From positions 1 through 64,000 of the forward strand of contig JABFSU010000017.1 in the NCBI GenBank assembly GCA_013140455.1: a stretch of 64,000 nt of DNA, in the 5' to 3' direction. Origin of the DNA: Nitrospira sp. GTDB lineage: Bacteria; Nitrospirota; Nitrospiria; Nitrospirales; Nitrospiraceae. The notes beneath the pieces were generated by a model. That model ran no database searches, was not told where the DNA came from, and saw only the letters and a list, made by a program, of their open reading frames with translations. Made by a program: the position numbers and the translations under genes. Below, piece after piece: positions 1-17,999 of this stretch. Each line of letters starts with the position of its first letter. The stretch's first letter is position 1.

Positions 1-675
1 ATGCCCGCCTACAAGATTGCTTCGGCGGACCTGAACAATATTCCATTGCAGAAATATATCGCAAAGTTAGGGAAGCCGATTTTTCTCAGCACCGGCGGTG
101 GAACGATGGCCGACATTCGCCGGGCTTGCAGCGCGATTCTCGAGCTGAACCCGCTGCTCACGATTCTGCACTGCACGGCCGCCTATCCGGTGGATGCGCA
201 AGACATGAATCTGAGCGTCATCCCGTCGCTGATGGCCGAGTTTCCCAAGCAGGTGATCGGGCTATCGGATCATGAAAACGGCATAGACGCGGCTTCTATT
301 GCATACATGTTGGGTGCGCGCGTATTTGAAAAGCACTTCACGCTCAATCGAGCGTTCAGAGGGAGCGATCACTCATTTTCTTTGGAGCCTGAAGGGCTGA
401 GGAAAATGATCAGAAACTTGAACAGAATTCCCGTCATGCTGGGCGATGGCAAGAAGTGGGTTTTGGAGAGTGAAAAGAAGCCACTCAAGAAAATGAGCAA
501 GTCTCTTGTGGCTTCGAGGAATTTGTCCCCGGGCCACACGTTGACGGAAAAAGATGTGGCGATTAAGTCTCCAAGCGGCGGACTCCCTCCGTTTGAGCTC
601 GAACGTATTCTGGGAAAGAGTCTTCGTGTTGCGCTAGCCGAAGATGACTTTATTCTTCTCGACAGCCTCGAATAG
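1..675 (+). CDS. N-acetylneuraminate synthase family protein (NeuB-like), 5'-truncated
   Basis: This is the C-terminal part of a NeuB/SpsE-type synthase, which condenses PEP with an acylamino-mannose-type sugar to give a nine-carbon nonulosonic acid. About 224 residues are visible. They include the NeuB-typical stretches TAAYPV, GLSDHE, FEKHFTL and a GSDHSFSLEP segment, then a C-terminal SAF/antifreeze-like domain (KSLVASRNLSPG onward, about residue 168 to the end). Full NeuB proteins have about 340-360 residues, so roughly 120 N-terminal residues lie upstream of the window. The ATG at base 1 is the window edge and probably not the true start. It is a paralogue of the complete NeuB at 11867-12943. 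It is followed by a PtmA-like SDR and, further on, a CMP-nonulosonate synthetase, so it probably serves a second nonulosonate pathway. The substrate is unknown. Confidence 0.88.
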   Translation: MPAYKIASADLNNIPLQKYIAKLGKPIFLSTGGGTMADIRRACSAILELNPLLTILHCTAAYPVDAQDMNLSVIPSLMAEFPKQVIGLSDHENGIDAASIAYMLGARVFEKHFTLNRAFRGSDHSFSLEPEGLRKMIRNLNRIPVMLGDGKKWVLESEKKPLKKMSKSLVASRNLSPGHTLTEKDVAIKSPSGGLPPFELERILGKSLRVALAEDDFILLDSLE

Positions 676-766
676 ACCGTGGCGGTTCATGCAGGTAGCA
701 ATGGGTCTGCAGGGATGTCCCATTTTCCGTTAAGCGTGTGAGCGAGATGATGAGCATGCAGGAGCG

Positions 767-1582
767 ATGCTGATGCCGGACTCCATTTTCTCCGTGGCGC
801 AAGAGACGGTTGTCATCACAGGCGTTTCCGGCCAGTTGGGTTCTCAATATGCGAGCGCCTTCTTGAAGGGGAATGCACGGGTCGTCGGTCTAGATCTGAC
901 GGCGTCTCCTTGCGTTGCTGCGCTGGCCTCTCAATTCGAAGGACGGTTTGCATTTTGTTCATGTGATGTGACTCAAGCGGGGAGTTTGCAGAATGCGTTG
1001 TTGATGACTCGTCAGTTGTTTGGAGCGCCTACGGTGCTGATCAACAATGCCGCGATAGATTCTCCTCCGAACGCGCCCATAGAAGAAACGGGGCCTTTTG
1101 AAGAGTATCCGGATGCTTCTTGGGACCGCATCATGGATGTCAATGTCAAAGGTGTGTATCTCGCCTCAAAAGTCTTCGGGGCCGCGATGGCCGCTCATCG
1201 GCGCGGGTCAATCGTGAACGTCTCGTCCATCTATGGCGTGGTATCTCCCGACCAAAGCATCTATGAATATCGCCGTCAACGCGGTGAGGTGTTTTATAAG
1301 CCTGCGGCCTATGCGGTGTCCAAATCAGCGTTGCTCAATTTAACGCGCTATCTTGCCGTGTATTGGGCGAAGAGCGGTGTCCGTGTGAACACGCTCGTGC
1401 TGGCTGGAGTTGAGAACAGCCAGGATCCGGAGTTCATGAAGGCCTATTGCGCACGCATACCCATAGGAAGGATGGCGGCGAAAGATGAGTATTGCGGCGC
1501 GGTTCTTTTTCTTGCCAGCCAGGCTTCCACGTATATGACCGGTGCACAACTCACCATGGATGGGGGCTGGACGGCGATTTAA
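767..1582 (+). CDS. SDR family oxidoreductase, PtmA-like
   Basis: A classical short-chain dehydrogenase of 271 residues. It shows the NAD(P)-binding TGVSGQLG motif (residues 18-25), NNAA (93-96), the catalytic Ser at about 153-154, and Tyr182/Lys186 in the YxxxK motif. The C-terminal half is clearly paralogous to the PtmA homologue at 15789-16616: both share SIYG, PD.xIYE, RVNTL, RMAA and a terminal DGG motif. PtmA proteins sit in flagellar legionaminic-acid loci of Campylobacter. The ATG at 767 has a GGAG ribosome site a few bases upstream; an ATG two codons in is an alternative. The gene overlaps the following aldehyde dehydrogenase by one base (TAATG), which suggests coupling. Its role here is inferred to be redox chemistry on a nonulosonate precursor; the substrate is unknown. 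Confidence 0.85.
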   Translation: MLMPDSIFSVAQETVVITGVSGQLGSQYASAFLKGNARVVGLDLTASPCVAALASQFEGRFAFCSCDVTQAGSLQNALLMTRQLFGAPTVLINNAAIDSPPNAPIEETGPFEEYPDASWDRIMDVNVKGVYLASKVFGAAMAAHRRGSIVNVSSIYGVVSPDQSIYEYRRQRGEVFYKPAAYAVSKSALLNLTRYLAVYWAKSGVRVNTLVLAGVENSQDPEFMKAYCARIPIGRMAAKDEYCGAVLFLASQASTYMTGAQLTMDGGWTAI

Positions 1583-3042
1583 TGGATACGCGGCAGATTT
1601 ACAATTGGGTTGATGGGAAAGAGTCGCCGGCAACAAGTGGGATCCGCCTCAAGAAGATCAACCCCCACACCGGGCTGGTTGACTCAGAGTGTATCGCGTC
1701 GTCACCCGAGGACGTTCGGCAAGCGGTCACTGCGGCCGAAGCAGCTTTCCCTGCGTGGTCTGAATTAACGCCGGTCGGCAGGGGTGGCATATTGAGTGCC
1801 TGGGGCAGGCTCTTGCGGGAGCGCCAGCAAGAACTGACCGAAATTATCGTGCGGGAAACTGCCAAGCCGCCGCAGGACGCGGGCGGGGAAGTTCATGCGG
1901 CACTGGCCCAGGGTGAGTATTTCGCGGGCGAAGGCATGAGGCTATATTCCCGTTCGCTGACATCAGGGACTCCGGGTAAGTACAGTCATACCGTCAGGCA
2001 GCCGCGCGGGGTTGCCGGTTTGATTGTCCCGGCCAATACACCCCTCGCAAATATTGCCTGGAAAGTCTTTCCTGCTCTGATCTGCGGCAACACCGCAGTG
2101 CTGAAGGCATCAGAAGATGCGCCGGAACTTGCTGTCGCTGTGGCGAAGCTTGGAAAACTTGCCGGATTGCCGGATGGAGTGCTGAACGTTCTGCAAGGTG
2201 GCGGAGATCCAACCGGCAGAGCGCTTGTGGAAGATGCTCGCGTGGCGGTGATTAGCTTTACCGGATCGACTGCTGTCGGGCGCTGGATCGCTGAAGTCGG
2301 CGGCCGGCGGTTGGCTCGAATCTCCTTGGAGTTGGGTGGGAAGAACCCGTTTGTCGTCTGTGATGATGCGGATCTCGATATGGCCGTACATTGGGCCAGT
2401 CTGTCGGCTTTTAGCAACGCAGGGCAGCGATGCGCCGCCGGGAGCCGTATTCTTATATTCGAGGGCATATATGAGGCGTTCGTCGAGAAACTCGTTGCCA
2501 AGGCGACGTCGCTCAAGCTTGGAGTCGATCAAGGATGCGATCTCGGCCCGGTTATCACGGCTCAGCAGCAATCGAAGATTCTCGCGGCGATTGAGCGGGC
2601 GAGACAGGCCGGTGGAAGAGTGCTGTGTGGAGGCAAGGTGCCCGGTGCGGAAAAACTGAGGAACGGATTTTACATCGAGCCGACACTGATAGACGGCCTG
2701 CCCGATGACGCCGAAATGTGCACCCGTGAAATGTTCGGCCCGGTCGCGAGTGTGCAACGGGTGCGTGACGTGGCGCATGCGCTGCAGGTTGCAAACGCCT
2801 CAGAATATGGTTTGACAGCTGCCATTCACACCAGGAATGTCGACCGGGCTATGTGGTTCGCCCAACGTGTGCGGGCGGGCGTGGTCAATATCAACATTGG
2901 AACATTTGGCAGTGAACCGCATATGCCGTTCGGGGGATTTCGCGCATCCGGAAATGGCACCCGGGAGCCTGGAGTTGAAGCGTTGGACGTCTATAGTGAA
3001 CTCAAAAACATTTCATTCTTGGTTCGCGACGCATTGATCTAA
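1582..3042 (+). CDS. NAD(P)-dependent aldehyde dehydrogenase
   Basis: Aldehyde dehydrogenase superfamily, 486 residues, the normal length. Hallmarks are PANTP with the catalytic Asn (about 152), the cofactor Lys in VLKASED (about 175), FTGSTAVG (226-233), the general-base Glu in LELGGK (about 250) and the nucleophilic Cys in GQRC (about 284). The start was placed at the ATG overlapping the previous stop (TAATG); an earlier in-frame start at 1492 would lie inside the SDR gene. The enzyme would oxidise an aldehyde, possibly an aldose or a sugar aldehyde, to an acid. An aldehyde dehydrogenase directly before an enolase-superfamily dehydratase suggests an oxidation-then-dehydration route to a 2-keto-3-deoxy sugar acid. 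That is inference from the gene order only. Confidence 0.87.
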   Translation: MDTRQIYNWVDGKESPATSGIRLKKINPHTGLVDSECIASSPEDVRQAVTAAEAAFPAWSELTPVGRGGILSAWGRLLRERQQELTEIIVRETAKPPQDAGGEVHAALAQGEYFAGEGMRLYSRSLTSGTPGKYSHTVRQPRGVAGLIVPANTPLANIAWKVFPALICGNTAVLKASEDAPELAVAVAKLGKLAGLPDGVLNVLQGGGDPTGRALVEDARVAVISFTGSTAVGRWIAEVGGRRLARISLELGGKNPFVVCDDADLDMAVHWASLSAFSNAGQRCAAGSRILIFEGIYEAFVEKLVAKATSLKLGVDQGCDLGPVITAQQQSKILAAIERARQAGGRVLCGGKVPGAEKLRNGFYIEPTLIDGLPDDAEMCTREMFGPVASVQRVRDVAHALQVANASEYGLTAAIHTRNVDRAMWFAQRVRAGVVNINIGTFGSEPHMPFGGFRASGNGTREPGVEALDVYSELKNISFLVRDALI

Positions 3043-3092
3043 GTGAGGCTCAATTATGATTCCTTTCCGGGGTGAAGATTGTAAGGTCTGCC

Positions 3093-4268
3093 GTGAAAAT
3101 AGATAAAGTCGAAATATTGCATGCAGATGCCGGTTGGCGGCCGTGGTCGTTCGTCAAGATTACGACGAATGACGGGCTTATTGGATGGAGTGAATGTACC
3201 GATTCGCACGGCTCCCCTCTGGGAATGGAGGGAGTTGTGAAAGATCTATCGCCTTTGTTGGTGGGGCAGGATCCGGGGAAAATCGAAAGACTCTGTTCGG
3301 ACATGCATGCTCGCACGCGCCAAAGTCCAGGTTCAGTCATTCAGAAGGCGATAGGCGGAATTGAAAATGCTTTGTGGGATATTAAAGCCAAGGCCTTGGG
3401 CGTCCCCGTCTACGAACTTTTTGGCGGGCCGGTTCGCGAGAAAATTCCGCTCTATTGGTCTCATTGCGGAACGTCACGTGTTCGCGCGTGGGATTTGGTG
3501 AAAAAGCCCGCTATTAGATCGCTCGAGGATGTGAAGGCATTTGGTGCAGAGGTGTGTGCGTCTGGCTACAAGGCACTCAAGACGAATATTGCGATTCTCG
3601 GCGAGAACCCGCATGTTTTCATGCCGGGGTTTTTCAAGAGTCCGGGCGGTCCTGAGTTGAATGCCGATCGCGGTATTCTGGCGGCGGTTGATCGGTGGGT
3701 TGGGGCGTTACGAGACGCAGTGGGGGGGCAGATCGACATTGCCCTCGATCTGAATTTCAACTTCAAGACAGAAGGCTATATTAAAATCGGGCGAGCGCTC
3801 GAACAATACAATCTCTTGTGGCTCGAGATTGATTCCTACGATTCCGAAGCGCTTCGCCAGATCAAAGATTCCGTACGGACGCCCGTCGCATCGTGCGAAA
3901 ACCTGTATGGGCTGCGCCAATACCGCCCGTTTTTCGTGAGTCACGCCATGGATATCGCATCCATAGATGTGATCTGGAACGGATTCTCCGGTTCCAGGAA
4001 AATCGCCGATATGGCAGAACTCTATGAAATGAATGTGTGTCCGCACAATTATAACGGCCATTTGTCGACGTTTATCAGCATGCAATTTTGCGCGCTGGTG
4101 CCGAATCTCCGGTTTGCGGAAATTGATGTGGATGACGTGCCGTGGCGGGATGAGCTATTCACCCACTCCCCTGAAGTCGAAAATGGATACCTAAACGTGC
4201 CGACGAGGTCCGGCTGGGGCGCGGATGTGAACGAAAAGACTTTGGCTAAACATAAATGGCCCAGATGA
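3093..4268 (+). CDS. Enolase-superfamily (mandelate racemase type) sugar-acid dehydratase or epimerase
   Basis: Mandelate racemase/muconate lactonizing enzyme family, about 391 residues. The family signature GIENALWDIKAKALG (89-103) followed by ELFGG is present. Likely metal ligands are Asp219 (in LDLN), Glu245 (in WLEID) and Glu269 (in SCEN). Asp292 and His318 (in CPHNYNG) match the Asp-His dyad of the MR subgroup, and Lys163 lies in the second-strand catalytic position. Members commonly dehydrate aldonates to 2-keto-3-deoxy acids; some epimerise. I chose GTG 3093 because AAGG lies six bases upstream; GTG 3072 is possible. The end overlaps the next gene by ATGA. A member inside a surface-sugar locus with NeuB and a CMP-sugar synthetase is unusual. 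The substrate cannot be read from the sequence. Confidence 0.82.
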   Translation: MKIDKVEILHADAGWRPWSFVKITTNDGLIGWSECTDSHGSPLGMEGVVKDLSPLLVGQDPGKIERLCSDMHARTRQSPGSVIQKAIGGIENALWDIKAKALGVPVYELFGGPVREKIPLYWSHCGTSRVRAWDLVKKPAIRSLEDVKAFGAEVCASGYKALKTNIAILGENPHVFMPGFFKSPGGPELNADRGILAAVDRWVGALRDAVGGQIDIALDLNFNFKTEGYIKIGRALEQYNLLWLEIDSYDSEALRQIKDSVRTPVASCENLYGLRQYRPFFVSHAMDIASIDVIWNGFSGSRKIADMAELYEMNVCPHNYNGHLSTFISMQFCALVPNLRFAEIDVDDVPWRDELFTHSPEVENGYLNVPTRSGWGADVNEKTLAKHKWPR

Positions 4269-5209
4269 AAGCGTGCGAACGTGTTGCAGTGCTCGGGCCC
4301 GGAGCGGTCGGTGGTTTGCTCGCGGCGTTGTGTTGGAAGGCCGGATATGACGTGTTGTGCATTGGACGAAAAGAATCCGTCCGTGCAATCCAACAGGATG
4401 GAATTCCGGTCGAGAGCCCTGTCTATGGAAATTTTATCGCCCGACCACGGGCGAGCGAAGAGTTCGTCGGTCCGGTCGATGTTCTCTTTATTACGGTCAA
4501 ATCTCCGCACTTATCGAACGCGATAGGACGGCTCGCTGTCGGGCAAGTGGGAAATGCGGTGGTGGTTCCCTTGTTGAACGGCGTCGGCCATCGAGAGGTT
4601 ATTCGAGCACGTCTCGGGTCTTGCGTCGCGGTCGGTACGATTGGCTTGGTCGAGGCTATTCGTGAGGAGGATGGCCGCATTCGCCATCATTCGAAAGGCT
4701 ACCCGCATATTGATATCGCGTCTGACAACGATGTCGCGCCGAGCGATTTGGATTGTGTCGCGAAGATGATTCAAAAAGCGGGTATCCCGACGTCCGTGCA
4801 TCGAACTGAAGCTGAGGTGATCTGGGGGAAGCTCGTTCGACTGAGCGCCGTCGCATCTTTAACCGCCGCGTTTCAAGAGCCCCTGGGGGCCATTCGCTCT
4901 GATCCTGAAAAGAGAGTGCTGCTGGAGGAAACCGTTCGTGAAGCGGCGTCGGTGGCTTCCCATGACGGGGTGGACATCGATCCCGGGAAGGTGATCGCCC
5001 AAATCGAGTCGTTTCCGTCCAGGCTCACGACCTCGCTCCAACGGGATATTGCCGCGAGCCATTCATCTGAAGTGGAGTCGATTACGGGAGGGGTCATACG
5101 CCTGGCGAATTCGTATGGCATTGCAGTTCCGGCACACGTGCGACTGTATGAAATGATCGCCGGGCGCTCCCGCCATGCCGCGATTGTCGGCGAGCGTAGC
5201 GTGTCGTGA
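4265..5209 (+). CDS. Ketopantoate reductase (PanE/ApbA) family protein
   Basis: About 314 residues with the N-terminal nucleotide-binding GPGAVGG (11-17), a LLNG motif (about 103-106) and a C-terminal helical domain. The conserved Lys in VIWGK (about 189) matches the catalytic Lys of 2-dehydropantoate 2-reductase. The family reduces 2-keto acids with NADPH. Here it lies between an enolase-superfamily enzyme, which could produce a 2-keto-3-deoxy acid, and a CMP-sugar synthetase. It may therefore act on a sugar-derived keto acid rather than on ketopantoate, though a displaced panE cannot be excluded. The ATG at 4265 overlaps the previous stop (ATGA); an ATG three codons upstream (4256) is the alternative. 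Confidence 0.8.
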   Translation: MKACERVAVLGPGAVGGLLAALCWKAGYDVLCIGRKESVRAIQQDGIPVESPVYGNFIARPRASEEFVGPVDVLFITVKSPHLSNAIGRLAVGQVGNAVVVPLLNGVGHREVIRARLGSCVAVGTIGLVEAIREEDGRIRHHSKGYPHIDIASDNDVAPSDLDCVAKMIQKAGIPTSVHRTEAEVIWGKLVRLSAVASLTAAFQEPLGAIRSDPEKRVLLEETVREAASVASHDGVDIDPGKVIAQIESFPSRLTTSLQRDIAASHSSEVESITGGVIRLANSYGIAVPAHVRLYEMIAGRSRHAAIVGERSVS

Positions 5210-5955
5210 TGGCTGCTGTGAATGCGCGCTTACACATCATGGGGATTGTCGGGATTCGGTCTGGCTCGAAAGGAGTGCCTGACAAGAATATTCGTCCGTT
5301 GGCGGGAAAACCCCTCGTCGGGTGGATTCTTGATGCTGCGAGTAAGTCGAAATACCTGAACCGCACGGTTGTTTCAACCGATTCTGAAGCGTATGCGGCG
5401 ATTGCCAAGTCATACGGTGCGGATGTCCCGTATCTTCGTCCGGCTGAACTCGCCGCCGACGACTCTCCGGAATATGAATATGTGAAGCATATGGTGGAGT
5501 GGCTGGAACGGAATGAGGGATATCGTCCGGACATCGTGGTTCGCATGATGGCAACGGTTCCATTGCAATCAACGCAGGACATCGACGCCGTCATCCGCAC
5601 ACTTCTTGACGATCCGAAAGCGGATTCGGCCGTCGCGATTGCCGAAGCGCGCCAACATCCCATGAAAGCGCTCAAGCTCGTCGAGGACGGAGACGGCAGC
5701 AAGAAGCTTGTCTCATATTTTTCTGAATCCGGACGCGAGGTCACTCCGATTGCCAGGCAGGGGTATGAAAAGGCGTACTTTCGGGCCAACATCATCGGAT
5801 GTCGGCGACGGGTTATCTTTGAGACGAATTCTTTGACCGGGGATCTTGTGCGCCCTCATATCATTCCTCAGAATCGTGCGGTCGATATCGATAACGAAAT
5901 AGATTTTTATGTGGTCGAGCACCTTCTGCGGTCATTGTCCCAGTCAAAGCGTTAG
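5209..5955 (+). CDS. Acylneuraminate cytidylyltransferase family protein (CMP-sugar synthetase)
   Basis: About 248 residues of the NeuA/PseF/LegF family, which activates nonulosonic acids as CMP-sugars. The nucleotide-binding loop reads IRSGSKGVPDKN (about 16-27), where the usual form is ARGGSKG, so Arg and Ser replace the first positions. The C-terminal acidic motif DIDNEIDF is present, as in the family. It starts at the ATG of a TGATG junction with the KPR gene (a GTG one codon earlier is possible). It is a paralogue of the LegF homologue at 15091-15792. It likely activates the product of the first module (the NeuB-like gene at the left edge or the enolase-superfamily branch). Confidence 0.85.
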   Translation: MAAVNARLHIMGIVGIRSGSKGVPDKNIRPLAGKPLVGWILDAASKSKYLNRTVVSTDSEAYAAIAKSYGADVPYLRPAELAADDSPEYEYVKHMVEWLERNEGYRPDIVVRMMATVPLQSTQDIDAVIRTLLDDPKADSAVAIAEARQHPMKALKLVEDGDGSKKLVSYFSESGREVTPIARQGYEKAYFRANIIGCRRRVIFETNSLTGDLVRPHIIPQNRAVDIDNEIDFYVVEHLLRSLSQSKR

Positions 5956-6012
5956 TGTGTATATGGTCACGCGGCGTCGGCAGTTGCAGCGTGTCATTTT
6001 CAGGAGTTAAGC

Positions 6013-7956
6013 ATGGGCGAACAAGTCACTCATAGTGTATCGGAGGCGGTTGAATCAACGACGGCAGGTATCGAGCTGTCCTACTTTGAGAAGGCTGCGT
6101 TTGATATCGTTCTGCAAGCCTCCGCTCCGCCGAGGCTGAAAGCCGAGTTGTTTGCCCAGATGGCGCGTTTTAATGCGTTGTATATGGTCGCACGCGCCGG
6201 CTCCGGGCATTTGGGGAGCAGCTTTTCCAGTCTTGATATCGTTGCTTGGCTGTACCTGAACGTGTTGCAGCCAGAGGATCGATATTATTCTTCCAAAGGG
6301 CACGACAGTCCCGGTTTATATGCGACTCAGGCCGCATTGGGAGTTATTCCGTTCGAGAAAATTCACGGGCTGAGGCGCTTTGGCGGTTTGCCAGGCCATC
6401 CGGATGTACAGACTCCCGGAGCGTACACAAATACAGGCTCTCTGGGGATGGGTGTATCCAAGGCAAAAGGATTTCTCTTTGCCGACAAGTTTTTGGGGCT
6501 GTCCAACGGGAGAGTCTTTGTCCTTACCGGTGACGGTGAATTGCAGGAAGGGCAGTTCTGGGAGTCGCTCATCAGCGCTTCGCGACGGTGGGACGGGCGT
6601 CTGACGGTTATTGTTGATCATAACAAGATTCAATCAGATACCTATGTTACCGATGTCAGTGATTTAGGTGATCTTGACGCAAAGTTCAGCGCATTCGGCT
6701 GGGATGTGGTCCGGTGTAATGGCCATGATGTGATTTCCCTTGAGAAGGCGTTTGCCGTGCCTAATTTGGAGGGGAAGCCCAGAGCGATTATCGCAGACAC
6801 GATTAAAGGGCGCGGCGTATCGTTTATGGAGCACACGGCGATGTCCCAGACCCAAGAATACTATCGGTATCATTCAGGAGCTCCGACGCCAGAGGATTAC
6901 TGCAAGGCATCACAAGAATTGCTGGCCGATATCCGGACTCGATCCAGCCTATTGGGGATTGCTGCGCCGGTAGTTGGTAAAGTGATCGTCCAGCCAATGA
7001 GTCTGCCGGCTGCTTCAGAGCGGATGATCCCAGCCTATGCGGCGGCAATTCTGGAAGAAGGTCACTTTAATCCTCATGTGGTCGCATTAGATGCGGATCT
7101 TGTGCTTGATACCGGTCTGATTCCTTTTAAGAGTGAACTTCCAGGGCAGTTCATCGAGTGTGGAATCGCTGAGCAGGATATGGTGTCTCAGGCCGGTACG
7201 ATGGCGTTGAGTGGTCTGCTACCGGTTGTTCACTCGTTTGCCTGTTTTCTCACCTCCCGCGCGTTTGAGCAGATTTACAACAATTGCACCGAGCGCACGA
7301 AGATTATCTACGTAGGATCGCTGGCCGGCGTGCTGCCCGGGGGACCCGGCCACTCGCATCAAGCGGTTCGCGACGTCACCGCCATGTCCGGGATGCCCGG
7401 CATGCGGATTGTGGAGCCGGTATGCTCGGCTCAAGTCAGGCCGGCGCTGCAGTGGGCTGCTCGTGTTCATAGGGGAAGCACCTATCTGCGATTGACCTCA
7501 ATTCCTCTTGAAGGGCGTCTTGAATTGGCCGAGGTGAATCACTTGGCAGAAGGGCGTGGACACATCCTGCGCCGGGGGAAGGATCTTACATTGGTGGCGG
7601 CCGGGGCGATTATGACGATCCAAGCGCTGAAGACGGCGAAGCAACTGGCAGACCAGGGGCTAGAGGCTCAGGTGGTAAGTACTCCCTGGCTGAATTGTAT
7701 TGACCTGACTTGGTTTGCGGGGTTGTTGACGGGAGTGCAGCCGGTGGTCACGCTCGAAAACCACGGCGTGGAAAATGGGTTCGGCTGTTTTCTTGTGAGC
7801 CAGTTGGCCATGGCGGGTTTGTTGGGCCAGCGGAAGGTGTTGATTGAGGGGATACGGGGTATCCCTGCCTATGGCCGTAATGAAGAAGTGCTCGCACACC
7901 ATGGGTTGGATGAGAGCGGCTTGGCGAAAGCCATCATGCAGGCCGTGAGAGGATGA
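6013..7956 (+). CDS. Transketolase, single-chain
   Basis: A 647-residue thiamine-diphosphate enzyme. The N-terminal TPP domain has GSGHLGSS (about 63-70), KGHDSPG (95-101) and the GDGELQEG motif (173-180) completed by the HNK at 203-205. The pyrimidine-binding half contains CGIAEQDMVSQAG with the activating Glu, and a C-terminal transketolase domain follows. It looks like a fusion of the two half-transketolases often found as separate genes, preceded by about 45 extra residues. A CAGGAG site lies upstream of the ATG. Transketolases move two-carbon ketol groups and can make sedoheptulose-7-phosphate, so it may feed the heptose-like module C or build a branched or elongated sugar for module A. 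Neither has been shown. Confidence 0.87.
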   Translation: MGEQVTHSVSEAVESTTAGIELSYFEKAAFDIVLQASAPPRLKAELFAQMARFNALYMVARAGSGHLGSSFSSLDIVAWLYLNVLQPEDRYYSSKGHDSPGLYATQAALGVIPFEKIHGLRRFGGLPGHPDVQTPGAYTNTGSLGMGVSKAKGFLFADKFLGLSNGRVFVLTGDGELQEGQFWESLISASRRWDGRLTVIVDHNKIQSDTYVTDVSDLGDLDAKFSAFGWDVVRCNGHDVISLEKAFAVPNLEGKPRAIIADTIKGRGVSFMEHTAMSQTQEYYRYHSGAPTPEDYCKASQELLADIRTRSSLLGIAAPVVGKVIVQPMSLPAASERMIPAYAAAILEEGHFNPHVVALDADLVLDTGLIPFKSELPGQFIECGIAEQDMVSQAGTMALSGLLPVVHSFACFLTSRAFEQIYNNCTERTKIIYVGSLAGVLPGGPGHSHQAVRDVTAMSGMPGMRIVEPVCSAQVRPALQWAARVHRGSTYLRLTSIPLEGRLELAEVNHLAEGRGHILRRGKDLTLVAAGAIMTIQALKTAKQLADQGLEAQVVSTPWLNCIDLTWFAGLLTGVQPVVTLENHGVENGFGCFLVSQLAMAGLLGQRKVLIEGIRGIPAYGRNEEVLAHHGLDESGLAKAIMQAVRG

Positions 7957-8070: not shown

Positions 8071-9438
8071 ATGGAAAAGCCTCACATCATCATTGTCATT
8101 ACGGCCTACATGTATTTGAGAGATTGGGTGAAGGCCGGTGCGTTTGAAGCCCTCAATGACCACTATACTGTTCATTATGTAGCGGTGCGCAGCGACTGGG
8201 ATCCTCGCGAGTTTGAGAAGTATGGTATTCCGCAATATCGGGTCATTTCACAGCCCAGCTATCGCCAATTTCTGTTGCGCAGGTTGCTGACCGTCACCAT
8301 GTATAAGCACGCGAGAATGTCTCGTGCATTCAGGATCAAGCTCGATCTCGTCCGGCCGAAGACGAGGTTTCTGTATCGAGCGCTTTCTCTTCCCGGTCTG
8401 TACGATCTGCTGTTGTGGGCGTACAACAGGCTGTTGCCGAAATGGACGGAGTTTTCCGATCTGGTGCGGGAAGTAAGACCGGTGCTGGTATTGGCTCCAT
8501 CTCTCGCGGCAGACAGCTACACCATCGACATGACGTATTCCGCAAGGCGGTTGGGCATTAAATCGCTCATGCTTATTAATAGTTGGGACAATCTTGTCAG
8601 CAAAGGGGTCTTGCCGATTCCGCCTGATTCCTTGGCCGTGTGGGGACCGCAGGGTGTCAATCAAGCGACACACGTGCAGAAAGTACCGAGAGACCGGATT
8701 GTGCAGCTCGGGGTTCCACGATTCGAGTCCTATTTTGACGACCGGCAGACGACCCCGACCGCACATATTCATTCGTTCAACAGGATACCCGAAGGGAAGA
8801 AAGTCATATTGTATGCCACCACGTCGATGCCGTTTGACGATATTCAAGCGCTGAAGCTCCTCGACCAGGAGATCTCCTCCGCTTATCCGGAATATGTCAT
8901 CTTGTTTCGGCCGCATCCAGGTATGCAGCGGCGCGTGGGCGAAGTGAATGCGACGGAGTGTGGTTTCAGGAATGTATACATCGACCAACAGCTAGCCGGA
9001 TATTATGCGGCAAGATTTACATTGCAGACGGGGAATTATCCCTCGTTTGATGCCCCGTTGGATTATTATCCTGCGCTGATGAAAAGCGTGGTCGGGATGA
9101 TCTGTCCTCCGACAACGCTGTCGCTGGAAGGCGCGCTCAATGGGGTGCCTTGTTTGATGATCTGCTATGGAGACGGCCGGAACAAGTGGCTTTCCCCGGA
9201 TCTTGTAAGTCAGTATGAAAATGTTGAAGAGGTGTTACAGTTCCCAGGAGTCGTCCCGTGTTACAGCGAAACGGAATTGTTGTCTTGTTTTCAACGGATC
9301 GTCGAGTGCAGCAAGGATGACGAGCTGAGGCGCAGGCTGGTGGAGGCGACGCGGTACGTTGTGTATCGGGATGAGAAGCCTTATGGCAGGCGACTCTCTA
9401 ACCTCGTCGATAATCTCCTGGTCGCTGAGGCTCCGTAA
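8071..9438 (+). CDS. Putative surface-carbohydrate transferase, GT-B-like, family unassigned
   Basis: 455 residues. I do not recognise a named family with confidence. The pattern is like proteins distantly related to CDP-glycerol glycerophosphotransferases and polysialyltransferases. The middle has an INSWDN segment, then WGPQG and QLGVPRFESYF, which is the usual 'tag at the end of the acceptor domain' pattern. The C-terminal half has YATTSMPFDD, LFRPHPG and a late PPTTLSLEGALNGVP segment typical of the nucleotide-binding part of GT-B folds. No membrane segment is evident. An AAGGGA ribosome site precedes the ATG. Its position right after a CMP-sugar activation module makes it a candidate nonulosonate transferase. 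That is inference. Confidence 0.55.
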   Translation: MEKPHIIIVITAYMYLRDWVKAGAFEALNDHYTVHYVAVRSDWDPREFEKYGIPQYRVISQPSYRQFLLRRLLTVTMYKHARMSRAFRIKLDLVRPKTRFLYRALSLPGLYDLLLWAYNRLLPKWTEFSDLVREVRPVLVLAPSLAADSYTIDMTYSARRLGIKSLMLINSWDNLVSKGVLPIPPDSLAVWGPQGVNQATHVQKVPRDRIVQLGVPRFESYFDDRQTTPTAHIHSFNRIPEGKKVILYATTSMPFDDIQALKLLDQEISSAYPEYVILFRPHPGMQRRVGEVNATECGFRNVYIDQQLAGYYAARFTLQTGNYPSFDAPLDYYPALMKSVVGMICPPTTLSLEGALNGVPCLMICYGDGRNKWLSPDLVSQYENVEEVLQFPGVVPCYSETELLSCFQRIVECSKDDELRRRLVEATRYVVYRDEKPYGRRLSNLVDNLLVAEAP

Positions 9439-9494
9439 GGGATGTCCGTGAGTTGGGATGGCGTCAGTTTAAGAATGCGGAAGTCGGTGCTCAT

Positions 9495-10490
9495 TTGAAG
9501 ATTCTTGTCACGGGGGCTGACGGGTTTATCGGGTCGCATCTGACCGAGGCCCTGGTGCGAGCCGGCCATGAGTTGCGTGCCTTCGTGTTCTACAATTCCT
9601 TCAACTCATGGGGATGGTTGGATCATTGTGGTGAGGATGTCCGGGGAAAGTTCGAAGTCTTTGCCGGGGACATTCGAGATCCCAACGGAGTTCGTACGGC
9701 GATGAAGGGATGCGATGCAGTTCTCCACCTGGCCGCATTGATCGCGATCCCATACTCCTACCATTCGCCGGATACCTACATCGATACGAATATCAAAGGG
9801 ACGCTGAATATTGTTCAGGCGGCTCGAGATTTGGATGTGGCGAAAGTGGTGCACACGTCCACAAGCGAGGTCTATGGCACTGCGAAGTTTGTCCCGATTA
9901 CAGAAGATCATCCGCTGCAGGGTCAGTCGCCCTATTCGGCAAGTAAGATCGGCGCAGATCAGATCGCGATGTCATTTTTTACCTCATTCGGGACACCGGT
10001 GACTCTCGTGCGTCCATTCAATACGTACGGCCCTAGGCAATCCGCCCGGGCGGTGATCCCTACCATCATTACGCAAATTGCCAATGGGAAACGACAGATT
10101 AAGCTGGGAGCGGTGCGTCCCACGCGCGACTTCAATTATGTGACCGATACGGTGGCCGGCTTTATGGCCGCACTGAATGCAGCTCAAGGCGCGGGCGAAG
10201 TCGTCAATCTTGGGAGTAACTTCGAGATTTCTATTGGCGATACGGCGCACCTCATCGCAGAGATCATGGGGGCGGAGGTCGAGATCCTGACTGACCAGGT
10301 ACGATTGCGTCCTGAGAGTTCCGAGGTGGAGCGGCTTTGGGCGGACAACGGGAAAGCTTACAAACTGTTCGGTTGGAAGCCCGCCTATGGCGGGCGAGAC
10401 GGATTCACGCGCGGGCTAGTGGAAACGGTCGAATGGTTCCGGCATCCAGCCAATCTCGTTAACTACAAGGCGGATCGCTACAATATCTGA
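9495..10490 (+). CDS. legB: Nucleotide-sugar 4,6-dehydratase, LegB-like
   Basis: Extended SDR of about 331 residues. It has the TGADGFIG Rossmann motif (6-13), TSTSEVYG (121-128) with Glu125 in the dehydratase position, and Tyr147/Lys151 in PYSASK. The stretches RPFNTYGPRQS and VRPTRDFNYVTDT are typical of LegB-type enzymes. In Campylobacter legionaminic-acid synthesis LegB converts GDP-GlcNAc to the 4-keto-6-deoxy sugar. The start is uncertain: TTG 9495 gives the usual MKILVTG N terminus, while TTG 9453 adds 14 residues and has AAGGGATG upstream. The downstream LegG-, LegI- and PtmE-like genes support the assignment. Confidence 0.8.
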   Translation: MKILVTGADGFIGSHLTEALVRAGHELRAFVFYNSFNSWGWLDHCGEDVRGKFEVFAGDIRDPNGVRTAMKGCDAVLHLAALIAIPYSYHSPDTYIDTNIKGTLNIVQAARDLDVAKVVHTSTSEVYGTAKFVPITEDHPLQGQSPYSASKIGADQIAMSFFTSFGTPVTLVRPFNTYGPRQSARAVIPTIITQIANGKRQIKLGAVRPTRDFNYVTDTVAGFMAALNAAQGAGEVVNLGSNFEISIGDTAHLIAEIMGAEVEILTDQVRLRPESSEVERLWADNGKAYKLFGWKPAYGGRDGFTRGLVETVEWFRHPANLVNYKADRYNI

Positions 10491-10695
10491 TCGGGGCATG
10501 GCGCGGAGGGTATTCGACCAGATGTTCAATTGGGTGGCTGGAGGGGATGAGCATGACCGCGGGTGAGCCATCCATGTTGGTGCACACGTTGGCCATGTAT
10601 AGCGACGGGTTCCGCATGCGGCTGCAAGCGGCGGAGCCATTCTGTATCCGCCCCGGCTATCCTCTAAACAGCACAAGATCGGTAGGCCTGCTGCG
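10491..10695 (+). other. Gap between legB and legG with possible gene relics
   Basis: This 205-base gap holds no convincing gene. Two short open stretches read like protein: a 22-codon frame from the ATG at 10498, and a 50-codon frame from the ATG at 10547 that ends in an ATGA overlap with the next gene. An ATGA junction is the style of real genes in this locus. The pathway's aminotransferase (LegC) and acetyltransferase (LegH) steps are missing from this module. The gap could be the remnant of a deleted gene, a small leader peptide, or chance. I could not match it to LegC or LegH. Confidence 0.25.
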
Positions 10696-11865
10696 ATGAC
10701 CCCCGCACGAAAGATTTGTATCGTGACCGGTAGCCGTGCCGAGTACGGACTGCTCTACTGGCTGATGAAAGAGGTCAGGGCGGATGTCGATCTGCAATTG
10801 CAAGTTGTCGTGACCGGTGCGCACCTCTCGCCGGAATTCGGACTCACCTTCCAGCAGATCGAAACCGATGGCTTCACGATTGACGCCAAGGTTGAGATGC
10901 TGCTCTCCTCCGACACGGGGGTGGGCATTGCAAAGTCCATGGGGGTTGGAGTTATCGGTTTCGCCGATGCGCTGGACCGGCTGAAGCCGGACATCTTGGT
11001 GGTATTGGGCGATCGGTTTGAAATGCTGGCGGCAGCTCAGGTGGCCCTGGTTTTACGGATACCCATTGCGCACATTCATGGTGGGGAAACAACCGAAGGC
11101 GCGTTCGATGAAGGTATCCGCCATGCGATTTCCAAACTGGCGCAATGGCATTTTGTCGCTGCGGAGCCCTATCGAAAGCGGGTCATCCAACTGGGGGAAG
11201 CCTCAGAGAGAGTATTCAATGTCGGCGCGCCGGGGTTGGATGCCATTCACCGCCTTGAGTGGCTGGATAGACCGTCATTGGAACGCGCGTTAGCGGTAAA
11301 ACTTGTCCCGCCCGTAATGCTGGTTACCTACCACCCTGCGACATTGGGCCAACGTGATCCTATTACTCCAATGAATGAGTTGCTGGCAGCCTTGGATGAG
11401 TTTTCAGAGGCAACGGTGGTTTTCACATATCCGAATGCCGATACCGGAGGGCGCTCGTTGATCGAGCGACTCAATCAATGGGTTTCGGCGAATAAGCATC
11501 GCGCCACAGCCTGGGATTCATTAGGGCAGCAGCGGTATTTGAGCCTGATGCGTGAGTCCGATGTTATTCTTGGCAACTCGTCAAGCGCGCTGACTGAGGC
11601 GCCTGCCCTGAAAAAGGCTACGGTGAATATCGGCGATCGTCAGAAGGGCCGCCTCAAAGCAACTTCCGTGATCGAGGCCGAGGAGAAGAGGAAGGCCATT
11701 GCCAGCGCGATTCGTAAAGCGTTGTCAGACGACTTTCGAGCGGCATTGCCGGCCACCACATCGCTGTACGGATCGGGAAACGTTAGTCGGCGGATCAAGG
11801 ATACGTTGAAGGTCGTGGCTATCGGGACGCAAAAATCCTTCTTCGATATCGCGCATGGGCACTGA
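10696..11865 (+). CDS. legG: Hydrolysing UDP/GDP-sugar 2-epimerase, NeuC/LegG family
   Basis: 389 residues. It has the NeuC-type N terminus TGSRAEYGLL (11-20), GDRFEML (105-111), HIHGGE (126-131) and DEGIRHAISKL, then GAPGLD and the C-terminal GNSSSALTEAP segment. The family epimerises C2 and hydrolyses the nucleotide, releasing a free 2,4-diacetamido-trideoxymannose-type sugar for the NeuB step. It is followed one base later by the NeuB homologue and preceded by LegB, the order expected for legionaminic-acid synthesis. LegG acts on a UDP-linked sugar in Legionella-type pathways and on a GDP-linked one in Campylobacter; the sequence alone does not decide this. Confidence 0.88.
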   Translation: MTPARKICIVTGSRAEYGLLYWLMKEVRADVDLQLQVVVTGAHLSPEFGLTFQQIETDGFTIDAKVEMLLSSDTGVGIAKSMGVGVIGFADALDRLKPDILVVLGDRFEMLAAAQVALVLRIPIAHIHGGETTEGAFDEGIRHAISKLAQWHFVAAEPYRKRVIQLGEASERVFNVGAPGLDAIHRLEWLDRPSLERALAVKLVPPVMLVTYHPATLGQRDPITPMNELLAALDEFSEATVVFTYPNADTGGRSLIERLNQWVSANKHRATAWDSLGQQRYLSLMRESDVILGNSSSALTEAPALKKATVNIGDRQKGRLKATSVIEAEEKRKAIASAIRKALSDDFRAALPATTSLYGSGNVSRRIKDTLKVVAIGTQKSFFDIAHGH

Positions 11866-11866
11866 T

Positions 11867-12943
11867 ATGAAGACATTCATCATCGCTGAAGCCGGCGTCA
11901 ATCACAACGGCGATCTGCATCTCGCGAAGCGACTGGTTGAGGCTGCGGCTGACGCAGGGGCCGATGCCGTGAAGTTTCAAACATTTCGCGCCGAGCAGGT
12001 CGTGAGCCGTCACGCCCCGAAAGCGGAATATCAGACTCGAGTGACGGACCAGGCTGAAAGCCAGTTCGACATGATCCGTAAGCTTGAGCTGAGTGAGACT
12101 GCGCACGATGAGTTGATAGCCCATGCCAATATGCGCGGGATCGCGTTTCTCTCAACCCCCTTTGATGTGCCGAGTCTGCACCTCCTTACCAAGCGATTCG
12201 GCTTGCAGACCATCAAGATCCCGTCAGGAGAAATTACCAACGCTCCATTTTTACTGGCGATTGCCCGCGCTGCTTCGCGGGTAGTGATGTCTACCGGCAT
12301 GAGCACGCTTGCGGAAGTCGAAGCTGCGTTGGGTGTGTTGGCCTATGGATTTGTCGGGACGGCCGCCGCAATCCCCCGGAGCGGAGAGTTTGAGCAGGCC
12401 TTCAGCTCTGACGCAGGGCAAGAAGCGCTGCGCAATCGCGTGACACTGTTGCACTGTACTACCGAATATCCTGCGCCGTTTAGCGAGGTAAATTTGCGCG
12501 CGATGGACACCATGGCCGAGGCATTTGGGTTGCCTGTCGGCTACTCGGATCACACCATGGGGATCCATATCTCGTTGGTTGCTGTGGCTCGGGGGGCTCG
12601 GGTGATTGAAAAGCATCTCACGATGGATCGCACTTTGACGGGCCCGGATCACAAGGCGTCGTTGGAGCCGGAAGAGTTGAGACAGTTAGTGCGTCAAATT
12701 CGTGAGGTTGAGCTGGCTCTGGGTAGGGGGATCAAGTATCCCACCTTATCGGAGCGGAAGAATCGCGCTGTGGCACGGAAGAGCCTGGTTGCGGCACGGG
12801 CTGTTCGTGCGGGAGAGCTGTTTACCGAAGAAAACCTGACCAGTAAAAGGCCAGGCACCGGGGTGAGCCCGTTTGCGTACTGGCAAACCTTAGGGCAAGC
12901 GGCACGCCGTGATTACAATCCCGACGAAGCGCTGGATGCGTAA
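11867..12943 (+). CDS. legI: Legionaminic acid-type synthase, NeuB/LegI family
   Basis: A complete NeuB-type synthase of about 358 residues. It has an N-terminal TIM-barrel region (IAEAGVNHNGD at about 5-15, ADAVKFQTF, FLSTPFD, KIPSGEITN, STGMST, HCTTEYP, GYSDHT, EKHLTMD, GPDHKASLEP) and a C-terminal SAF domain (KSLVAAR onward). It condenses PEP with the LegG product to give a nine-carbon 2-keto acid. The ATG at 11867 lies just after the legG stop; an in-frame ATG at 11855 overlaps legG. It is a paralogue of the truncated NeuB at the left edge. A gap of 190 bases follows before ptmE. Confidence 0.9.
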   Translation: MKTFIIAEAGVNHNGDLHLAKRLVEAAADAGADAVKFQTFRAEQVVSRHAPKAEYQTRVTDQAESQFDMIRKLELSETAHDELIAHANMRGIAFLSTPFDVPSLHLLTKRFGLQTIKIPSGEITNAPFLLAIARAASRVVMSTGMSTLAEVEAALGVLAYGFVGTAAAIPRSGEFEQAFSSDAGQEALRNRVTLLHCTTEYPAPFSEVNLRAMDTMAEAFGLPVGYSDHTMGIHISLVAVARGARVIEKHLTMDRTLTGPDHKASLEPEELRQLVRQIREVELALGRGIKYPTLSERKNRAVARKSLVAARAVRAGELFTEENLTSKRPGTGVSPFAYWQTLGQAARRDYNPDEALDA

Positions 12944-13133
12944 GCGAGGGCCAGACTGGCAGGGTTGGATTTGCTTGAAGTGGTCCGGGAAGTAGCCTGT
13001 AAGAGGGCTGACTCTGGGCGGCTGGTTCGAGCGCACTACAGGCCTAGCAAGAGCGGCAGTGTTGTAAGTTGAGGGACGAACGACGGCTGGATATCCGGCG
13101 TAATGCCACAGCCTAAATCGGAATGAGCACCTA

Positions 13134-14183
13134 ATGGCGGATTGGAAAGATGTGATTGTTTCTCCCGACACGACGTTGGGCGAGGCGATTGCCAAGGTTG
13201 ATTCGGCGGGACTGCAGGTCGCTCTGGTGCTGGCCGCAGATACCTCTTTGCTCGGAATTCTGACGGATGGAAATATCCGTCGTGCCATTTTGGCCGGCAA
13301 GGATCTTCAAGTTCCCGTTTCAACAGTGATGAATGTGCGACCAACGACGGTCACAGCATCCACCCCTCGCGATGAAATGCTCGCGCTCATGCGGAGGAAA
13401 GTGCTCCATCATCTCCCTGTGGTGGATGATGCGGGGCGAATCGTCGGACTGGTGACGCTTGACGAGATCATCGGCGCTTCGCACCGTCCCAATTGGGTCG
13501 TGCTCATGGCCGGCGGGTTAGGAACGCGGCTGCAGCCTCTGACCGATGATTGCCCTAAACCGTTACTGGAGGTTGGCGGCAAGCCGATCCTGGAAACCAT
13601 CCTTGAGAGTTTTGCCGAACAGGGGTTCAAACAGATCTTTCTGTCCGTCAATTACAAAGCTGAGATGATCCGTAATCACTTTGGCTCGGGGGATCGCTGG
13701 GGCGTGCAGGTAGAATATTTACACGAGGGCCCTCGTCTCGGTACTGCCGGCGCGTTGTCGCTCTTGCCTAAAAGGCCCACAGCTCCAGTGGTCGTCATGA
13801 ACGGCGATCTATTGACGCGCCCGAACTTTGAAAACATCTTGCAGTTTCATCTGGCTCAAGGCGCCGTTGCCACCATGGTCGTTCGCGAATATGATTTTCA
13901 GGTGCCGTATGGCGTGGTTCGGCTCAATGGCACGCGGATCGAAAGCATCGAAGAAAAACCGGTACAGAAGTTTTTCGTCAATGCCGGCATTTATGTGCTG
14001 TCGCCGGAAGCGCTCGAGTACCTGCCTGCAGGGACATGTTTTGATATGCCTGTTCTGTTCGAGCACTTGGTTGCTGCAGGCAAGACCGTTGCCGCCTATC
14101 CCTTACGTGAATACTGGCTGGATATCGGGCGACTGGATGATTTCGAACGGGCGCAGCGAGAGTGGGTCAAAGATAAGGCATGA
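13134..14183 (+). CDS. ptmE: CBS-domain sugar nucleotidyltransferase, PtmE-like
   Basis: 349 residues in two parts: a pair of CBS domains (about 5-115) and a nucleotidyltransferase domain (about 120-345). The latter carries AGGLGTRL (126-133), the PKPLLEVGGKP loop, VVMNGD with the metal-binding Asp, and FVNAGIYVL. This architecture matches PtmE of Campylobacter jejuni (Cj1329), which makes GDP-linked glucosamine at the start of the GDP-type legionaminic-acid pathway. The order here (NeuC, NeuB, PtmE, PtmF-like, PtmB, PtmA) resembles that locus. The CBS pair could bind a nucleotide and regulate activity. It overlaps the next gene by ATGA. Confidence 0.85.
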   Translation: MADWKDVIVSPDTTLGEAIAKVDSAGLQVALVLAADTSLLGILTDGNIRRAILAGKDLQVPVSTVMNVRPTTVTASTPRDEMLALMRRKVLHHLPVVDDAGRIVGLVTLDEIIGASHRPNWVVLMAGGLGTRLQPLTDDCPKPLLEVGGKPILETILESFAEQGFKQIFLSVNYKAEMIRNHFGSGDRWGVQVEYLHEGPRLGTAGALSLLPKRPTAPVVVMNGDLLTRPNFENILQFHLAQGAVATMVVREYDFQVPYGVVRLNGTRIESIEEKPVQKFFVNAGIYVLSPEALEYLPAGTCFDMPVLFEHLVAAGKTVAAYPLREYWLDIGRLDDFERAQREWVKDKA

Positions 14184-15094
14184 GAGCCTTGGTGCTTGGC
14201 TACGGGTCTATCGGTGCCCGACATACTCGTTTATTGGGCGAGGCAAAGTGTTCCGTGGCTGTGCTGAGTCGCCGCTCAATCGATGTGACCCCCTGCTATT
14301 CGGAGTTGGCGCACGCGCTTTCCGACTGGAAGCCGGAGTATGTGGTGGTGGCAGAGCGAACGAGTGAGCACCATCTCACGCTTGATGGGTTGATTCATTG
14401 CGGGTTTCGGGGGCGGGTATTAGTTGAGAAACCTCTCTTCGATCGTGTCGTGCCGCTTCCCTCTCATAACTTTTCGGTCGCCGCGGTCGCGTACAATCTC
14501 CGCTGTCATCCTTTGTTAGTCAGGTTAAAGTCACTACTGGAAGACGCGGGCGGTTTGGTTGCGGTGAATGTGTATGTTGGGTCATATCTCCCGGCGTGGC
14601 GACCGAAAAGTGATTATCGTCAAAGCTATTCTGCAAGCAGGGAGCAGGGCGGCGGTGCCTTGCGGGACCTCAGTCACGAAATAGATTATACGCAGTGGCT
14701 TTTCGGCTCATGGCGCCGTCTGACGGCCTCGGGTGGCCACGTGAGCGATTTGGATATTGACAGCGACGATGCCTATAGTCTGCTCATGGAGACTCAGCGG
14801 TGCCCATTAATCACGGTCCATATGAATTACCTTGATCGCGTACCACGCCGGGAAATCAGCGTGCATACGAATCGGCATTCAATTCAAGTCGATTTGATCA
14901 AGAACACGATCCTGGTTGATGGGGACCAGGAAATAATCAGTGTTGCACAAGATGATACCTACCGTGCCGAGCATCACGCTATGTTAACGGGCGATGCGAA
15001 GGAGCTCTGCACGTTGGAGGAGGGCCTGGAAACAGTTATGACCATTGAAGCGGCAGAGCGGGCCGCCGCCTCTCACGTTTGGATCACCCGATGA
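14180..15094 (+). CDS. Gfo/Idh/MocA-type oxidoreductase, PtmF-like
   Basis: 304 residues. It has an N-terminal Rossmann motif GYGSIGARH (7-15), an EKPLF motif with the conserved Lys typical of Gfo/Idh/MocA enzymes, and a C-terminal substrate domain with a GGALRDLSHEIDY segment, which in this family carries substrate-binding residues. Genes of this type commonly lie between PtmE-like and CMP-sugar-synthetase genes, so I call it PtmF-like from context. PtmF is linked to supply of the glucosamine precursor in Campylobacter, but I am not certain of its reaction. ATGA overlaps exist at both ends, so it is in one operon with ptmE and legF. Confidence 0.72.
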   Translation: MRALVLGYGSIGARHTRLLGEAKCSVAVLSRRSIDVTPCYSELAHALSDWKPEYVVVAERTSEHHLTLDGLIHCGFRGRVLVEKPLFDRVVPLPSHNFSVAAVAYNLRCHPLLVRLKSLLEDAGGLVAVNVYVGSYLPAWRPKSDYRQSYSASREQGGGALRDLSHEIDYTQWLFGSWRRLTASGGHVSDLDIDSDDAYSLLMETQRCPLITVHMNYLDRVPRREISVHTNRHSIQVDLIKNTILVDGDQEIISVAQDDTYRAEHHAMLTGDAKELCTLEEGLETVMTIEAAERAAASHVWITR

Positions 15095-15792
15095 GGCGAA
15101 TCTGTACGATCTGTGCTCGGGGAGGGTCCAAGGGTGTTAAGAATAAAAACATTCGAAATCTGATGGGGAAGCCCCTGATTGCGTATACGCTCGAACAGGC
15201 GCAGGCCAGTCAGTTATTTGAGATGATTGCGGTCAGTAGTGATTCCCCGGAGATTCTCGATCTGAGTCGACGGTATGGGGCTGACCTTCTCGTCGAGCGA
15301 CCGGCGGAGTTAGCGACGGATACGGCCGCGAAACTACCGGTGATTCGACATTGCGTGGAGGAGGCGGAGCGGATTGCCGGGAAGACGTTTGATTGCATCG
15401 TTGATCTCGATGTGACCTCCCCGCTGCGATTCGTAGAGGACATACAAGGAGCCGTCGCCCTCTTAGAGAAAGAACAGGTTGCCAATGTTATCACGGGGGC
15501 TCCGGCTCACCGCTCGCCGTACTTTAACCTGGTGGAGCTGGGGAATGACGGTGTCGTGAGACTTTCGAAGTCTCTCGAAAAACCCATCGTGCGCCGCCAG
15601 GATTCTCCGCAGTGTTTCGATATGAATGCCTCGATTTATGTGTGGCAGCGGGCGGCGTTGTTTGAATCTCCGGGGATCTTCAATGCCGATACCCGCCTGT
15701 TTGTGATGCCGAAGGAACGATCGATCGACATCGACGATGAACTGGATTTCGAGTTCGTCGAATTCTTGATGAGGAAGCGATGTGCCTCATGA
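15091..15792 (+). CDS. legF: CMP-legionaminic acid synthetase, LegF/PtmB family
   Basis: About 233 residues of the acylneuraminate cytidylyltransferase family. It has the canonical loop ICARGGSKGVKNKN (7-20), SSDSPEIL, a central DLDVTSPLR motif, NASIYVW and a C-terminal DIDDELDFEF acidic motif. It activates the LegI product with CTP. The start at 15091 overlaps the previous stop (ATGA); an ATG four codons earlier lies in the ptmF-like gene. It differs from the paralogue at 5209-5955, which has IRSGSKG in the loop, so the two probably activate different acids. Confidence 0.88.
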   Translation: MRRICTICARGGSKGVKNKNIRNLMGKPLIAYTLEQAQASQLFEMIAVSSDSPEILDLSRRYGADLLVERPAELATDTAAKLPVIRHCVEEAERIAGKTFDCIVDLDVTSPLRFVEDIQGAVALLEKEQVANVITGAPAHRSPYFNLVELGNDGVVRLSKSLEKPIVRRQDSPQCFDMNASIYVWQRAALFESPGIFNADTRLFVMPKERSIDIDDELDFEFVEFLMRKRCAS

Positions 15793-17991: not shown

Positions 17992-17999
17992 GACGAACG

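Follow-up and report, generated by a model that had tools for sequence, protein, structure and literature searches.

In the 64,000-nucleotide stretch of Nitrospira sp. DNA considered here (hereafter the window), the first 7956 nucleotides carry seven genes. They combine a sialic-acid-type gene set with three further enzymes that would oxidize, dehydrate and reduce a sugar acid, namely an aldehyde dehydrogenase (ALDH), a dehydratase of the mandelate racemase type (MR) and a ketopantoate-reductase-family (KPR) enzyme. The combination is unusual, yet it is seen again in a distant bacterium with a tiny genome, and it therefore probably represents a genuine, hitherto undescribed means by which a sialic-acid-like sugar is made or decorated. 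The explanation that we favor, albeit tentatively, is that a core pathway centered on the synthase NeuB yields an ulosonate activated with cytidine monophosphate (CMP), and that an ALDH-MR-KPR branch yields a 3-deoxyaldonic acid used as a decoration.

The seven-gene module and its NeuB synthase

Family assignments by Pfam and NCBIfam bear out the first-pass annotation of this region, which had named seven genes in a tight run. That these genes form one biosynthetic module within a glycan locus is also supported. From 5′ to 3′, these encode NeuB (hereafter NeuB1), a PtmA-like short-chain dehydrogenase (SDR), ALDH, MR, KPR, a CMP-sugar synthetase, and a transketolase. The MR and KPR genes overlap by 13 bases, the KPR and synthetase genes overlap by 4, and the stop codon of the SDR gene shares bases with the start codon of the ALDH gene (TAATG), and thus the seven genes read as one operon. 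All catalytic motifs examined in the module are intact. Its earlier description as a second module is also apt, since another, distinct set of legionaminic type lies downstream and includes a NeuB of its own.

Table 1. Features of the glycan locus in the window (PEP, phosphoenolpyruvate)
Feature	Coordinates	Strand	Basis
NeuB1, PEP-dependent ulosonate synthase, C-terminal 224 aa	1..675	+	PF03102 and SAF (PF08666)
PtmA-like SDR	782..1582 (alternative start 767)	+	PF13561, YAVSK motif
ALDH	1582..3042	+	PF00171, E=6.6e-148
MR sugar-acid dehydratase, enolase superfamily	3072..4268	+	MR_MLE_N/C
KPR 2-ketoacid reductase	4256..5209	+	ApbA N and C domains; above TIGR00745 cut-off
CMP-ulosonate synthetase, PseF/NeuA-like	5206..5955	+	PF02348 (CTP_transf_3)
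Single-chain transketolase	6013..7956	+	Transketolase N/Pyr/C
GT-B-like transferase, candidate glycosyltransferase for the CMP-sugar	8071..9438	+	Glyphos_transf, weak, PF04464 2.6e-7
Legionaminic-type module: LegB, LegG/NeuC, LegI, PtmE, PtmF, LegF, PtmA	9489..16616	+	Homology to cassettes in related genomes, e.g. L101

The NeuB1 gene is incomplete in the window, whose first base is the end of its contig (C93). The sequence upstream of this base, which the first-pass annotation had proposed to complete, is provided by contig C109 of the same assembly, the end of which matches the window start exactly over 127 bases and contributes the missing N-terminal part of NeuB (L005:2-511, minus strand). 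The two contigs are likely joined, since assembler k-mers leave overlaps of this size. The break within neuB, between two contigs of ~95 kb (window 1 / G000:C109:1), perhaps reflects strain variation at the locus. Farther upstream, C109 carries genes for an ABC transporter and a NusG-type antiterminator together with heptosyltransferase- and lpx-like genes (these last two kinds named by eye), which mark this as an envelope-glycan region.

With its catalytic and SAF domains, and with DH and EKH motifs conserved in alignment, NeuB1 has the domains and the metal-binding His and PEP-site residues of NeuB-family ulosonate synthases. The enzyme looks functional, and it alone accounts for a 3-deoxy-ulosonic acid. 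Ser311 of NeuB1 (in a KSP motif) occupies the SAF-domain position of Arg314 in NmNeuB, a residue reported to contact and place the N-acetyl group of N-acetylmannosamine and to be essential when changed to Ala (PMC6795526). The arginine typical of N-acetylhexosamine-type synthases (for N-acetylneuraminic, pseudaminic and legionaminic acids) is therefore replaced, and the substrate of NeuB1 is probably a sugar that is not N-acylated. Serine is present at this position in 39 of 91 aligned NeuB sequences and arginine (KRP) in all five LegI-type sequences; about 30 of the 91 do not include the region. The genome of the window has a further, divergent NeuB-family match, on a short contig (G000:C83:486-1070; L004).

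Recurrence of the dehydratase and of the core

The distribution of the MR gene was surveyed with one genome per species, examining the best 80 loci; this and the viral scan described below were pattern-based, and their counts are lower bounds. The top match is a contig of Candidatus Giovannonibacteria (L014), whose MR is 67% identical to that of the window. There, NeuB, MR, KPR, CMP synthetase and ALDH genes are contiguous in an order that differs from that of the window, and thus five of the seven families of the module are represented on a contig that ends within the ALDH gene. An FkbM-type methyltransferase and a transferase similar to that of the window lie upstream. No NeuB or CMP synthetase was found at the other 79 of the best 80 MR loci. 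Among 384 genomes of the same class as L014, a second genome (G982, locus L222) carries an MR gene (59% identity to the window) directly beside NeuB; its CMP synthetase, 76-77% identical to that of L014, is at the edge of another contig, and a gene similar to the window transferase is also present. The co-occurrence of the seven genes elsewhere, which the first-pass annotation had proposed as a check, is therefore largely seen in L014 and only in part in G982. The NeuB proteins of both loci share the serine of NeuB1. Closer to home, 295 other genomes sampled from the phylum of the window gave one distant MR match only (30% identity), and the other 174 genomes of its family gave none, in both cases at the thresholds used.

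A FastTree phylogeny of 89 MR sequences unites the proteins of the window, L014, L222 and a phage contig (L230:8019-9188; 60% identity to the window) in one clade with a support of 0.988, set apart from relatives in non-glycan settings. The pairing of the window with L014 within this clade is unstable, with support of 0.998, then 0.88, and then broken upon addition of L230. In all three non-phage members, NeuB is complete and either adjoins MR or shares a short operon with it. No NeuB is present in the 15.7 kb of sequence that carries the phage MR gene, which was the one viral match obtained with a three-sequence profile; a two-sequence profile retrieved none from viral contigs.

The finding that the NeuB/MR association recurs in distant genomes with a different gene order indicates that the module is not a product of chance. 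This bears on the possibility that catabolic sugar-acid enzymes merely landed in a glycan locus, which we consider very improbable. In its favor, most MR relatives retrieved reside in loci lacking NeuB and CMP synthetase, and several are beside GntR regulators and ABC transporters. Yet these relatives fall outside the clade of the window MR, no transporter, regulator, aldolase or second dehydratase adjoins the ALDH-MR-KPR genes, and the association extends to the small genomes of candidate phyla radiation (CPR) bacteria, which together with the surrounding glycan genes makes a catabolic role unlikely. The plasmid MR homologs that we inspected have no NeuB or adjacent KPR, and some are beside GntR and ABC-transporter genes. 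On one Roseovarius plasmid, the genes for MR and CMP synthetase are ~10 kb apart with transposase genes between them, and the plasmid was set aside for this reason; the single Streptomyces locus examined among plasmid KPR matches is without CMP synthetase.

The remaining genes of the module form a core that is found independently of the other three. On a Streptomyces plasmid (L100), NeuB (52% identity, also with the serine), SDR (45%) and transketolase (49% over 635 aa) genes are consecutive and look to be part of a natural-product cluster. In four viral contigs (L119-L122, of which L121 and L122 are near-identical copies), NeuB, SDR, CMP synthetase and transketolase genes are followed by an FkbM-type gene in the same stretch. 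Among the best 80 NeuB loci in viral contigs, CMP synthetase is present in 54, FkbM in 28, SDR in 27 and transketolase in 8, whereas MR, ALDH and KPR are present in none. The core found in phage and Streptomyces without these three genes is thus separable from the branch, and the window has both.

Several features of these loci are observations in their own right. The Streptomyces sp. NBC_01237 plasmid region (L100:14135-21449) joins NeuB-SDR-transketolase to hydroxyphenylglycine-type glyoxalase/FMN-dehydrogenase/aminotransferase, HAD, RmlD and class III aminotransferase genes, and possibly specifies a natural product with an ulosonate-derived unit. A NeuB-(SDR)-CMP synthetase-(transketolase)-FkbM cassette occurs in many viral contigs (L119-L122, L142-L220), with NeuB proteins up to 55% identical to that of the window; in L119 and L120 it is followed by portal/protease/capsid-like genes. 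The transketolases of L119-L122 are ~420 aa long, as compared to 647 aa in the window, match only residues up to ~500, and apparently lack the C-terminal domain.

The core enzymes of the window conform to their families. The SDR has the YxxxK motif and recurs downstream or upstream of the same partners elsewhere, flanked by NeuB and transketolase in the Streptomyces plasmid and by NeuB and CMP synthetase in the phage contigs. The closest solved relatives of the CMP synthetase, which is 43% identical to its L014 counterpart, are NeuA enzymes, and its CTP_transf_3 domain with the DIDxExDF metal motif (AVDIDNEIDF) places it in the CMP-sialate/ulosonate synthetase family. Its relatives in the family of the window's host belong to ordinary clusters for legionaminic-type or related nonulosonates, with no MR, KPR or ALDH matches, and the transketolase had no match at E<=1e-80 in the other 174 genomes of that family.

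Possible roles for the three added enzymes

The ALDH has the catalytic Cys and the Glu of ELGGK, and its nearest curated families are 2,5-dioxovalerate and alpha-ketoglutaric semialdehyde dehydrogenases, with scores far under the cut-off. The MR protein has the metal ligands (D226/E252/E276), the Asp-His dyad that the first-pass annotation had called intact (D299/H325), and K170, all conserved in the PDB 2oo6 family (379-bit match to 2oo6), and so has the Asp/Glu/Glu ligands and His-Asp dyad that define the MR subgroup of acid-sugar dehydratases. It scores under the cut-off of every curated dehydratase family tested (best 164.8 bits, cut-off 311) and is thus not one of the named acid-sugar dehydratases (galactonate, gluconate, mannonate etc.). 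A literature search on the 2oo6-type enzyme returned no relevant paper. The KPR protein exceeds the TIGR00745 cut-off (177 bits versus 141), and its ApbA N and C domains and catalytic residues N108/K192/E272, conserved with L014, place it in this superfamily.

The KPR gene follows the MR gene in the window, in L014, and in two loci without NeuB where the two genes are adjacent (L075 and L083), which suggests that reduction of the MR product by KPR is the simplest reading. Such reduction would remove the C2 ketone and thereby preclude CMP activation at C2. This consideration matters for the original proposal that ALDH and MR yield a 2-keto-3-deoxyaldonate that is CMP-activated directly, either in addition to the NeuB product or in its place. 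In chemical terms MR products are 3-deoxy-2-ulosonates, which is the class of compounds that CMP synthetases act on, and MR and synthetase share genomes. However, at each of the three non-phage loci MR is accompanied by an apparently functional NeuB, NeuB and CMP synthetase suffice in many phage contigs, and KPR is left with no role, or would destroy the needed ketone unless it acts elsewhere. A bypass of NeuB by ALDH and MR is therefore not supported, and we regard direct activation as improbable.

The main alternative, which we consider rather unlikely, has the three enzymes act before NeuB, on the acid end of its substrate. ALDH would oxidize the far end of the sugar to give a uronic acid, MR would dehydrate the position next to the new carboxylate, KPR would reduce the resulting keto acid, and NeuB would then condense PEP with the aldehyde that is still free. 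The product would be a CMP-activated deoxy-ulosaric acid of an undescribed kind with a carboxylate at each end. This linear route would employ all five enzymes shared with L014 in sequence, is favored by the pairing of MR with NeuB in G982, where KPR was not found, and would place the KPR step before the C2 ketone is formed, so that it does not clash with CMP activation. It leaves SDR and transketolase without a clear role; moreover, we know of no precedent for MR-type uronate dehydration toward a NeuB substrate.

For the explanation that we favor, a NeuB core with a separate branch, we infer substrates, step order and the fate of the branch product as follows. By analogy with the aminoDAHP route of rifamycin-type clusters, which parallels the set of SDR, transketolase and PEP aldolase, SDR and transketolase would prepare a non-N-acylated (shortened) aldose. 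NeuB1 would condense this aldose with PEP to give a 3-deoxy-2-ulosonic acid, the synthetase would form the CMP-sugar, and the nearby transferase would place the ulosonate on a surface glycan. In the branch, ALDH would oxidize an aldose to an aldonate, MR would dehydrate it to a 2-keto-3-deoxyaldonate, and KPR would reduce the 2-ketone to a 3-deoxyaldonic acid (2-hydroxy, 3-deoxy), which would decorate the ulosonate or a partner sugar. The three genes in the window are in the same order as these steps. 3-Deoxyaldonyl groups are known decorations, as with the 3-deoxy-L-glycero-tetronyl group of Vibrio cholerae O1, and the nonulosonate of Treponema denticola flagellin reportedly carries a 2-methoxy-4,5,6-trihydroxyhexanoyl group.

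Four points weigh against this explanation. The neighbors scanned, which covered part of the window genes, gave no candidate acyl-CoA ligase or GNAT-type acyltransferase that could activate and transfer the acid, which weakens the decoration model. KPR was not found in the draft genome G982, a circumstance ill explained by a side-chain branch. The KPR proteins of the window and L014 are only 30% identical, and no tested activity was found for any member of the MR family.

Neighboring genes, related systems and implications

The LegI of the neighboring legionaminic-type module has the Arg of KRP. Downstream of this module are an amidotransferase-like gene and then more glycan genes. This amidotransferase-like gene has no Pfam match and by eye resembles the WbpG/PseA type; a HisF-like gene comes next (the two at 16663-18767), which suggests an acetamidino substituent.

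Like the legionaminic and pseudaminic acid pathways (Campylobacter leg/ptm and pse), the seven-gene module unites NeuB-type PEP condensation, a PtmA-like SDR and a PseF/LegF-like synthetase in one cluster. Unlike them, it adds ALDH, MR, KPR and transketolase, and none of its genes encodes a 4,6-dehydratase, aminotransferase, acetyltransferase or NeuC-type epimerase/hydrolase; the 4,6-dehydratase-like and NeuC-like genes belong to the adjacent module. Lacking these nucleotide-sugar steps and the substrate arginine, the module is not a member of either pathway. NeuB1 shares KxQK and YGxTYGEHR motifs and the absence of the SAF-position Arg with the Kdn/N-acylneuraminate-9-phosphate synthase type (NANS), but no kinase or phosphatase is adjacent. 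The window MR shares its fold family, metal ligands and His-Asp dyad with galactonate/gluconate-type dehydratases and the PDB 2oo6/3sn1 family, but belongs to a small clade in which three of four members are in NeuB loci. The tetronate set of the V. cholerae O1 O antigen likewise provides a 2-hydroxy-3-deoxy sugar acid that decorates a surface sugar, but it uses an acyl carrier, a ligase and reductases that differ from the window enzymes, and its acceptor is not an ulosonate. The kanosamine/aminoDAHP branch of 3-amino-5-hydroxybenzoic acid (AHBA) clusters follows the same logic of oxidoreductase, transketolase and PEP-condensing aldolase, but with a DAHP synthase rather than NeuB, and ends in an aromatic amino acid unit rather than a CMP-sugar. 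Comparable in this respect is the Streptomyces plasmid, where NeuB-SDR-transketolase is joined with HAD and aminotransferase genes.

We found no literature linking nonulosonic acid or nonulosonate clusters with mandelate-racemase-type dehydratases and glycosylation, in a search that left most subscription papers outside its reach. If our explanation holds, dehydratases of the enolase superfamily, whose known roles lie mainly in sugar-acid catabolism, would have been recruited to surface-glycan biosynthesis beside a NeuB synthase, and this recruitment would span organisms as distant as the host of the window, small-genome CPR bacteria and, for the dehydratase alone, a phage. It would also define a recognizable NeuB subgroup, marked by Ser at the position of the substrate Arg, together with a set of enzymes that can be tested for an unknown CMP-sugar acid.

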